Origin: Micractinium sp. NFX-FRZ
Taxonomy: Eukaryota > Chlorophyta > Trebouxiophyceae > Chlorellales > Chlorellaceae
Direction of reading: 5' to 3'
NCBI GenBank assembly: GCA_029339195.1
Contig: JAPTJF010000180.1
Span: 1-64,000 of the forward strand
Length of the DNA stretch: 64,000 nucleotides
The notes under the pieces were generated by a model. It saw nothing but the letters and a program-made list of their open reading frames with translations, was not told the DNA's origin and made no database searches. Positions 7,468 to 10,400 of the stretch are shown piece after piece. Position 1 is the stretch's first letter, and each line of letters starts with the position of its first letter. The position numbers and the translations under genes are program-made.

Positions 7468-10400
7468 TCAAAGTAGCGCACGCCACGACTTGGTGGCCTC
7501 GGCTGTTGTAGCCGTCATGCCGCCGCCCTCACCGCTGCCTGAAGCCGCCGACAGCGGCTTCAGCAAGAGGCCGAAGCTGTACTGAGCCGGCGGCACCAAG
7601 TACTCCTTGTGCACTGCAGGAGGAAGAGGCACGAAAAGCAGGCAGGCGTGACAATCTTTCATTCTCTCGCTCCTATTGTCTCTCCTTCTTCCCTCATGCC
7701 CCGACCTGCCCAACTATGACAACGCCCCTTGAAGCGGACAAGAAATAATACGCACCGGTGGGGCTCCAGCTGTCGTCGCCGCCCACTCCCATGTGCTTGT
7801 GGTCCAGGTGCACCCAGGTAAAACCAGAGGGCTGCAATCAGTGAGTGAAGGGGGGGGGCGGGAGGGGGCGGCGCAGCGCACATGTGGACGGCCGGTGTGG
7901 GGGAATGTCAGGGGCCACATTCACAGGATGCCTTCACGCATGCCAGCCGTTGGCTGGGCTCACCTCCAGCTCGTGGTCGTGCTTGGCGCGCTCAAAGCTG
8001 CGCACGCTGTAGGGGCTTACGTTCATCTGCGCGGTAAGGGAGAAGAGGGCGGCAAAGGGTTGTGGGGCGGTGTGTGTGGGAAGGAGGGAGCGCAAACACT
8101 AGAGGGTATAGAGTCGCCTCAACCCAGCGCACACACCCTTGCACAAGCCGCCCCCGTGCCCTCTTGGTTCCTTGCCTGCAAACTGCTGCCCGTGCCAACC
8201 GCAGCCGCCAGCAGGCCCGCGCCGTGGGTGGGGTCTGCCAGTGCCATCCAGCGCACGTCCGCCCGCCCGCCGCTCTCGCCTGCAAGGGTGGCCAAGAGCC
8301 AGTTAGCAATGGTTTGTCATGCATATGCGCCAGCCTGGCAGACCTGGTAAGCACACAAACACACTCACTGGGGTAGACGTAAGGGACGTGCAACTGTGCC
8401 ACGGCGTCCACGGCATGGCAGCGTAGGGGAGCGCCGGCCTTGCGGTCTGCACGGAAAAGGGAGCCAGCAGGGTGCGGGCAGGTGGGCGGGGGCTGACCGG
8501 GAGAGGCGGGGAGGGGCTGGCGCAGGCAGGTGGGCAGGAAAGCGTCGGGGCCCGGCTTTCCAGGTGGGCAGGCAGGCAAGGGGTGGGCAGGTGCAGGAGG
8601 CTGGCAGACGAGCGCAGGCTGAGCAGGTGGGCAGGACTGTGGAGCTTTGGTTTTGTGCTATTTGTGCTCGCAAGCAGTGGAAGCGGGGTGAACGCAAGTG
8701 CTGGTAAGCAGGCAAGAGGCGTTTGGAGCCTTGTGTACCGGTGCCGTCTGCCCTAACAATCAACGGAAGTGTTGTTAGCATGCTGCGTCCCCGCTCCCCC
8801 CCGCTCGCAATCGCCCACACCGCCCAGCACAGTCCGCTGTTCTCTCGAGTTTTCATGCCTGGCGCCACCTGTTGCCCCGTTTGCCTGCCTGCCTTGCCTC
8901 CCTGCAGGCATGTGTCCACAAAACTGCCCGCCTGCCTTGCCCCACTGCAGGCATGTGGCCTCCCTAGTATCCGGAAGGGATATCCCACAGTAGCAAGGGA
9001 TATACGTGCTCGTAAGCATGCACGTTCTTGCATGTGCACACTCTTCCAAGCAGGAATGACCCTCACCTGAGTAGCACTCGTGCGGGCCGCGCCCGTACCA
9101 CACAACCTGCTGCTGGGGGGCGGGCACGCCGAAGCTCACGCCCACGCTCGGCAGCGACCTGCGGGCGTCGGCGGCACAGGATGGCGCAGGGGGAGGGGAA
9201 TAACACTTCTGCGTGCAAATAAAAAGCAGAACTGCAGTCGACCGCTCTACCACTGAGCTATAAGTCCGAGCGTACTATATTAGGACCCATCCGGGTTCGA
9301 ACCAGAGACCTGTCGATGATTGCAAGAAGTGGTCATTCGCGCGCGGGAGCGATCTTCGGTGTTCATCTTTGCACAGATGCCCGATCCTACCCACCTTTCG
9401 AGGCCGGGAGCTAGGGCCGCCGGAAGCGCCTCTCGGGCGTCCATCTCCCACCGCATGAGCAGCGAACCGTCCCCACGCACTGTTTGGGGAGGACAGGAGG
9501 GGAGAAAGTCGGTCGGGAAGGGCCAACGTGGCCCCAACGCGGTTAAACAGACGCCCCGCCCCACACCCCTTCGCGCACGATCCCCTTCTTGGCATGCCGT
9601 GCTGCCCTCACTGCCGCTTCAGCACACCAAACAGCAACCCCCACGCCCCATCCTACCTGTGTAGGCGACTTGGCAGGCAATGCTGCCCTCGCTGCTGCCG
9701 CCAGCCGCCGCCTCAGCGGCTGCCACATTCACAGTGGTGGGCTGGTTCTCAGACAGCCAGTGCGCGCCGCCCACCTGCAGCGGCATGGGAAAGCAAGCAT
9801 TGTGCGGTGCAATGGTGGCTGCAACGGGTGTTTGGGCTTCTAATGGGTGCATGACAGGGGGCAGCAGCCCCTTCTGTTGAGCCCTCGGCTCACCTCACCT
9901 ACGCCACGCCCACACCTTCGCCACCTCCCGCCTCACTCCACCCAACCGCTCCCTCCCTCCACCCCCTCGGCTCACCTCGCCGACGCCCACCCCCTCCTCC
10001 ACCCCCTCGCCATCCTCCTCCGGCCGCTCCTCCGGCCGCAGCAGGAAGGAGCAGGCAATCTCCACGCTGTCCGCCTGCTGCTTCGGGTCTGACAGGTTGA
10101 CGCTGCCGGGCGCCACCGCCAGGCGGTCCAGCCCTGCGGCCTTCCACCTGTGGTGAGGGCAGGTGAAGGGGCATGCAATGCTCGCTGAGGCTCGAAACAA
10201 CATGAGAGGTGGCGGGCACTAGCGTGGCACAAAGCTGGTCGTCCTGCCTGCCCCATCGCCACCAGCAATCATCACCCCTTGGCAACCCATGCCCCACCTA
10301 GCGGCACAGCTGCTGCCGCCGCTGCTGCCCCAACCACTCCACTTGCCGTGCTCTCAACTTCCACTACCCCGTTTCACCCCACTGCACCCGCTACCCCCCT

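Follow-up and report, generated by a model that had tools for sequence, protein, structure and literature searches.

A permuted tRNA-Cys(GCA) gene nested in a predicted LacZ-like gene intron of the green alga Micractinium sp. NFX-FRZ, and its permuted relatives in the same genome

Positions 9317–9232 on the minus strand of the window (the whole 64,000-nt stretch of Micractinium sp. NFX-FRZ DNA analysed here) probably form an active RNA polymerase III (Pol III) gene for a permuted tRNA-Cys(GCA) of type II (37/38 junction), which is nested in a predicted intron and would mature via an RNA circle. We put the probability of this reading, which is drawn from sequence, at roughly three in four. The parts of the gene and its immediate flanks are as follows:

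9318..9324, minus strand: leader segment (−7 to −1); its positions −4 to −7 can form pairs with 33–36 of the anticodon loop in the tRNA-intron register (relaxed BHB)
9282..9317, minus strand: tRNA-Cys 3′ half, positions 38–73, comprising the anticodon 3′ strand, variable loop, T-arm, acceptor 3′ strand and U73
9268..9281, minus strand: linker of 14 nt between the acceptor strands, 36% GC, presumably excised from a circular intermediate
9232..9267, minus strand: tRNA-Cys 5′ half, positions 1–37, comprising the acceptor 5′ strand and D-arm, with anticodon GCA at 9235–9233 and G37 at 9232
9221..9225, minus strand: T5 run that begins 7 nt past position 37 and probably serves as a Pol III terminator

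The order on the minus strand is leader, 3′ half, 14-nt linker (AATATAGTACGCTC), 5′ half, TTCTGC and T5. The earlier note had described a 3′ half that precedes the 5′ half on one strand, an AT-rich linker of 14 nt and an oligo-T stretch after the gene, and extraction of the sequence bears out all three (linker at 9281–9268; T5 at 9225–9221). When 9232 is joined to 9317, the 37/38 junction proposed in that note, ARAGORN calls a tRNA-Cys(gca) from the rejoined halves with all stems complete: the acceptor stem is GGACTTA/TGGGTCC with discriminator U73, the D-arm GCTC/GAGC, the anticodon stem GTCGA/TCGAC with loop CTGCAGA, and the T-arm TCTGG/CCGGA. ARAGORN calls no tRNA in the window as encoded, and an Rfam search of the window at gathering scores returns no match. 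As run here, ARAGORN overlooks part of a tRNA set that contains permuted genes. A permutation-aware search had been suggested as a check, and a structural scan for 37/38-permuted tRNAs gives a single match in the window, while the same scan on 200 dinucleotide-shuffled windows gives six matches, or about 0.03 per window. On this comparison, together with the paired changes among the sister genes described below, a chance origin of the window gene was rejected.

The permuted tRNA-Cys is predicted to sit in sense within a GT-AG intron of a LacZ-like gene, whose relevant parts are:

9657..9774, minus strand: further-upstream exon, placed by an in-frame join, with little homology alone (with 9395..9479 but without the downstream exon, no match)
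9395..9479, minus strand: upstream exon of the LacZ-like gene, placed by homology and frame
9159..9394, minus strand: predicted host intron of 236 nt, GTGGGT...CGCAG, placed by extraction and exon homology
9067..9158, minus strand: downstream exon of the LacZ-like gene (Bgal_small_N), placed by homology and frame

The 3′ half of the tRNA begins 77 nt from the splice donor, and 73 nt separate the tRNA from the 3′ splice site. Joining 9479–9395 to 9158–9067 keeps the frame, with ...APGLER and SLPSVGVSF... on the two sides of the joint. On the upstream side, reading frames hit LacZ_4 at 27.5 bits, over a cut-off of 27.3, as well as positions 2–54 of Bgal_small_N, and the downstream frame matches positions 110–141 of the latter. 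The joined piece, preceding exon included, scores 45.7 bits on PF02929 (Bgal_small_N). By itself, the downstream exon reaches 32.2 bits, and the upstream piece by itself does not match. The exon joint also aligns weakly to the solved beta-galactosidase 6s6z (E 0.0006, with a gap near the joint), and a protein search with a host exon finds 19 relatives. Same-strand exons, GT-AG borders and a kept frame uphold, on the basis of homology, the nesting in a beta-galactosidase gene intron that had been read from the sequence. The sense orientation stands as well, since the tRNA and the exons are all on the minus strand.

A DNA search of the whole genome (66,065,352 bases in 838 contigs) finds three places, namely the window itself and one locus each on contigs C47 and C376. 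Both of the latter are permuted tRNA-Cys(GCA) genes according to ARAGORN on the rejoined halves, and their linkers measure 15 and 37 nt, respectively. All 21 stem pairs are standard in all three sisters (63/63 stem cells), and six of the 21 show two-sided changes, of which the acceptor stem holds four. The acceptor stems of the three copies have diverged, and their differences make reads assignable to each copy. Controls slid by 1–3 columns show 27–51% pairing and no two-sided changed pairs. Among 500 shuffles of the sister alignment, one matches the observed pairing and one the count of two-sided changes, in a test that is based on three sequences only. Such paired changes between halves encoded in swapped order are something that neither a relic nor a chance resemblance explains.

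The C47 tRNA (97090–97004) lies 50 nt upstream of a 3′ splice site, on the same strand as its host, a 60KD_IMP (Oxa1/Alb3/YidC) gene with exons on both sides of the tRNA. C47:98118–98210 matches positions 22–52 of the 60KD_IMP profile weakly (20.7 bits), and C47:96855–96959 matches positions 51–85 above the cut-off (40.4 bits). The exon joint reads ...NDPERLQ followed by VETAKMYQ..., and the bordering dinucleotides are GT and AG. This tRNA-Cys is predicted to be sense-nested in an intron of the Oxa1/Alb3-like gene as well, which places two of the three permuted tRNA-Cys genes in sense within predicted host introns, a proportion for which no enrichment is claimed.

At least seven permuted tRNA loci are found in the genome, an inventory that is a lower bound: three tRNA-Cys(GCA) and four tRNA-Ala(CGC), the latter on C29 (two, in inverted order), C155 and C288. 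With these loci, and with one sister in the predicted intron of a second protein gene, the window gene is not an isolated case. A D-arm pattern with up to two mismatches matches 18 places (control, 1), five of them on the organelle-like contigs C837/C838 and 13 elsewhere. By ARAGORN and the permuted-tRNA scan, those 13 are the three Cys genes, the four permuted tRNA-Ala(CGC) genes, a conventional tRNA-Thr and tRNA-Arg, and four places without a tRNA. The 72-nt halves are identical at the four tRNA-Ala(CGC) loci and the linkers differ (8–13 nt); the leaders of the C29 pair agree at 37 of 40 places, and the other comparisons at 9 to 15 of 40. On 97 overlapping fetched records, the permuted-tRNA scan returns the seven known loci, with C155 picked up in two different registers, plus a single false match, which begins in the T-arm of a conventional tRNA-Glu. 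A second D-arm pattern (16 matches, 9 in the control) adds no permuted gene, and of the 5 matches to a Ser/Leu-type pattern (0 in the control), three are conventional tRNAs and the other two hold no tRNA. Three of the matches to a further Ser/Leu-type pattern (12 matches, 13 in the control) were examined, of which two are conventional tRNA-Leu(CAG) and the third holds no tRNA; an iMet-type pattern gives 64 raw matches compared with 11 in the control. The C29 Ala pair (L034, 1445–1529 on the plus strand and 1795–1879 on the minus strand) is 265 bp apart and lies near a weak, below-cut-off zf-RVT match.

In the preferred reading, Pol III would start upstream of the 3′ half and stop at the T5 run. 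A run of T4–5 begins 3–7 nt past position 37 in six of the seven permuted genes, the remaining one being an Ala gene (C29a) with its first T4 only at +30, and a T5 run directly follows both intronic tRNA-Cys copies. At the same loci, the background frequency of TTTT within 26 nt is 4.9% (282 of 5792 sampled positions), while T4 or longer occurs within 26 nt of 17 of 22 conventional tRNAs (a 23rd, at a contig end, was left out). This enrichment of T-runs after permuted genes favours Pol III. No TATA-like box was seen by eye in the 77 nt between the splice donor and the 3′ half, which counts against such a unit. The sequence ACCACTTC is present at leader positions −16 to −9 in the window Cys gene (L001) and the C155 Ala gene (L037), and is missing there in the other five leaders.

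In eukaryotic tRNA introns, loop position 32 stands opposite intron position −3. With the leader treated as an intron end, the pairs 32:−3 to 36:−7 were scored, five per gene in seven genes. In total, 25 of 35 register pairs can form (4, 3, 3, 4, 4, 4 and 3 of 5, with four in the window gene), compared with 6 to 17 of 35 at thirteen other offsets (−2 to 11). Shuffled leaders attain 25 pairs in 1 of 20000 trials, or 2 of 20000 when one C29 copy is dropped; because the gene copies share ancestry, this figure is strong but is not a strict probability. The 32:−3 pair is missing from all three Cys genes. The accessible part of PMC3978253 mentions pairs between anticodon and intron as well as the hBH motif, and does not use the 32:−3 numbering. 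Speaking against the register pairing, leader and trailer together fold with an unremarkable energy in most of the seven genes, the window gene among them. For the window gene with a fixed anticodon stem, 107, 241 and 72 of 500 shuffles are as low at 15, 20 and 30 nt, respectively. The lowest counts elsewhere are 23/500 (C155, 15 nt), 37/500 (C47, 20 nt) and 42/500 (C155, 30 nt), and the C288 energy is worse than that of most shuffles (479/500 at 20 nt). In free folding of leader, gene and trailer, the cloverleaf is the minimum for C47 and for the C155 Ala gene, and is not the minimum for the window gene at 141 or 171 nt.

Through its pairing with the anticodon loop, the leader may offer the tRNA-splicing endonuclease the shape of an ordinary 37/38 tRNA intron. 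Cuts after G37 and before A38, followed by ligation, would yield an 86-nt circle, from which RNase P and tRNase Z would excise the 14-nt linker, with CCA added afterwards. Profile matches to tRNA_int_endo (tRNA-splicing endonuclease) occur at two loci, as do matches to an RtcB-type ligase (C74:73248–73607 and C265). The C74 match holds four TGA codons, perhaps marking an unspliced intron.

It is unlikely that the permuted tRNA has no Pol III unit of its own and is instead released by the tRNA-splicing endonuclease from the Pol II pre-mRNA of the host or from its excised intron, in a snoRNA-like manner. The sense orientation in two host introns fits such release, as does a 7-bp pairing, noted by eye, beyond the T-run (CACTTCT at 9331–9325 with AGAAGTG at 9210–9204), which is possible only in the longer host RNA. 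However, this outer pairing falls inside the 30-nt energy test, where the result is not significant (72/500). The T5 run after both intronic copies, and the T4–5 runs within 7 nt in six of seven genes over a 4.9% background, are Pol III-like. Furthermore, Pfam searches of flanking frames, few of which were covered, show no host gene for C376 (two frames), C29 (two), C155 (one) or C288 (one). On the preferred reading, the window gene is a clean test case for how transcription works when the B-box precedes the A-box and the gene lies inside a Pol II unit.

Less likely again is a silent relic, either a permuted tRNA gene that has decayed into a pseudogene or a stretch across two tandem tRNA pseudogenes, in which the 3′ part of the first adjoins the 5′ part of the second. 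Tandem tRNA repeats have been proposed as ancestors of permuted genes (PMC3978253, in the part available), the activity of the gene is itself deduced from sequence, and two other copies could carry the load. Against a relic, all 21 pairs are intact with paired changes between copies, and the leader register and the T-run are retained. Very improbable is an intron element whose tRNA-like fold influences host splicing, an effect described for mitochondrial-type tRNA look-alikes in human introns (nimtRNAs; PMC7722341), which likewise place a tRNA shape inside a protein-gene intron. The tRNAs stand upstream of a 3′ splice site by 73 nt in the window and by 50 nt at C47, which would suit such an element, but this reading gives no role to the swapped order, the T-run or the leader register. 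Moreover, nimtRNAs are mitochondrial in origin and are headed in their source as not processed like bona fide tRNAs, with no mention of permutation in the portion accessible, whereas the best identity of the window tRNA to 41 distinct tRNAs from fetched stretches of the organelle-like contigs C837/C838, none of them a tRNA-Cys, is 64%. DNA searches with the tRNA-Cys find no match on these two contigs, and among the tRNAs compared nothing suggests an organellar origin. A tRNA-derived SINE or retrocopy was rejected: 9150–9400 contains no direct repeat at least 8 bases long, and no A-rich tail was seen by eye.

The kind of gene is already known, and the novelty is the repeated nesting of permuted tRNAs in introns predicted to be spliceosomal. 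Auxenochlorella is a Chlorella-like green alga. Like the present genome, its strain UTEX 250-A carries permuted nuclear tRNA genes, which were absent from its first tRNAscan-SE set (PMC12636532); the available text on these genes is silent on introns. Table 1 of PMC3978253 gives type II permuted tRNA-Cys(GCA) genes in O. lucimarinus, O. tauri and M. pusilla, and accessible parts of that paper describe circular intermediates in red and green algae and linkers of 1–74 bp in permuted genes. The Ostreococcus and Micromonas genes share isotype, anticodon, 37/38 junction and a short linker with the present Cys genes, the linkers being 26, 38 and 12 bp long in those genera, compared with 14, 15 and 37 here. 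The present genome differs in having three copies with diverged acceptor stems; two of the three are predicted to be sense-intronic here. Cyanidioschyzon merolae has the same swapped halves and a T-stretch after the 5′ half, and its circular intermediate has been shown; it differs in being a red alga with several junction types, in which most of the genes have a TATA-like sequence no more than 50 bp upstream, whereas no such sequence is seen here (PMC3978253, as far as accessible). Nucleomorphs are covered in PMC4494063, again from the part available. The novelty claimed in the earlier note holds in part: permuted tRNA-Cys with a 37/38 junction (Ostreococcus, Micromonas) and permuted tRNAs in Auxenochlorella are in print, whereas no permuted tRNA gene in a protein-gene intron stands among the titles and abstract openings listed by literature searches that cover few subscription journals, two of them listing 20 of 25,655 and 20 of 1,265 papers.

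The cellular supply of tRNA-Cys bears on the weight of these genes. A tRNA family search on the draft assembly, in which 63 of 639 first-look candidates were scored, gives at least 64 matches, at least 20 of them outside C837/C838. These 20, a tRNA-Thr at C230 and two tRNA-Leu make up the 23 conventional nuclear tRNAs typed by ARAGORN, among which there is no Cys. DNA searches at E up to 10 for a conventional tRNA-Cys find the permuted loci only; one of them overlooked the known C47 sister, so the hunt is not exhaustive. The check for a conventional tRNA-Cys(GCA) that had been called for thus found none, within that non-exhaustive scope. If there were no ordinary tRNA-Cys gene, the cysteine codons of nucleus-encoded, cytosol-made proteins would all depend on RNA circles. 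It is improbable that the nuclear tRNA-Cys comes from permuted genes alone, two of the three sense-intronic, with endonuclease and spliceosome sharing the host RNA and the tRNA leaving the intron as a circle. Among other tRNAs, a selenocysteine tRNA(TCA) is present on C21 (L073), for which ARAGORN proposes an 18-nt intron, and two conventional tRNA-Ser(GCT) genes at C714:248–328 and 689–769 (L074) stand in inverted orientation and share the same flanking sequence over 60 nt before and 26 nt after.
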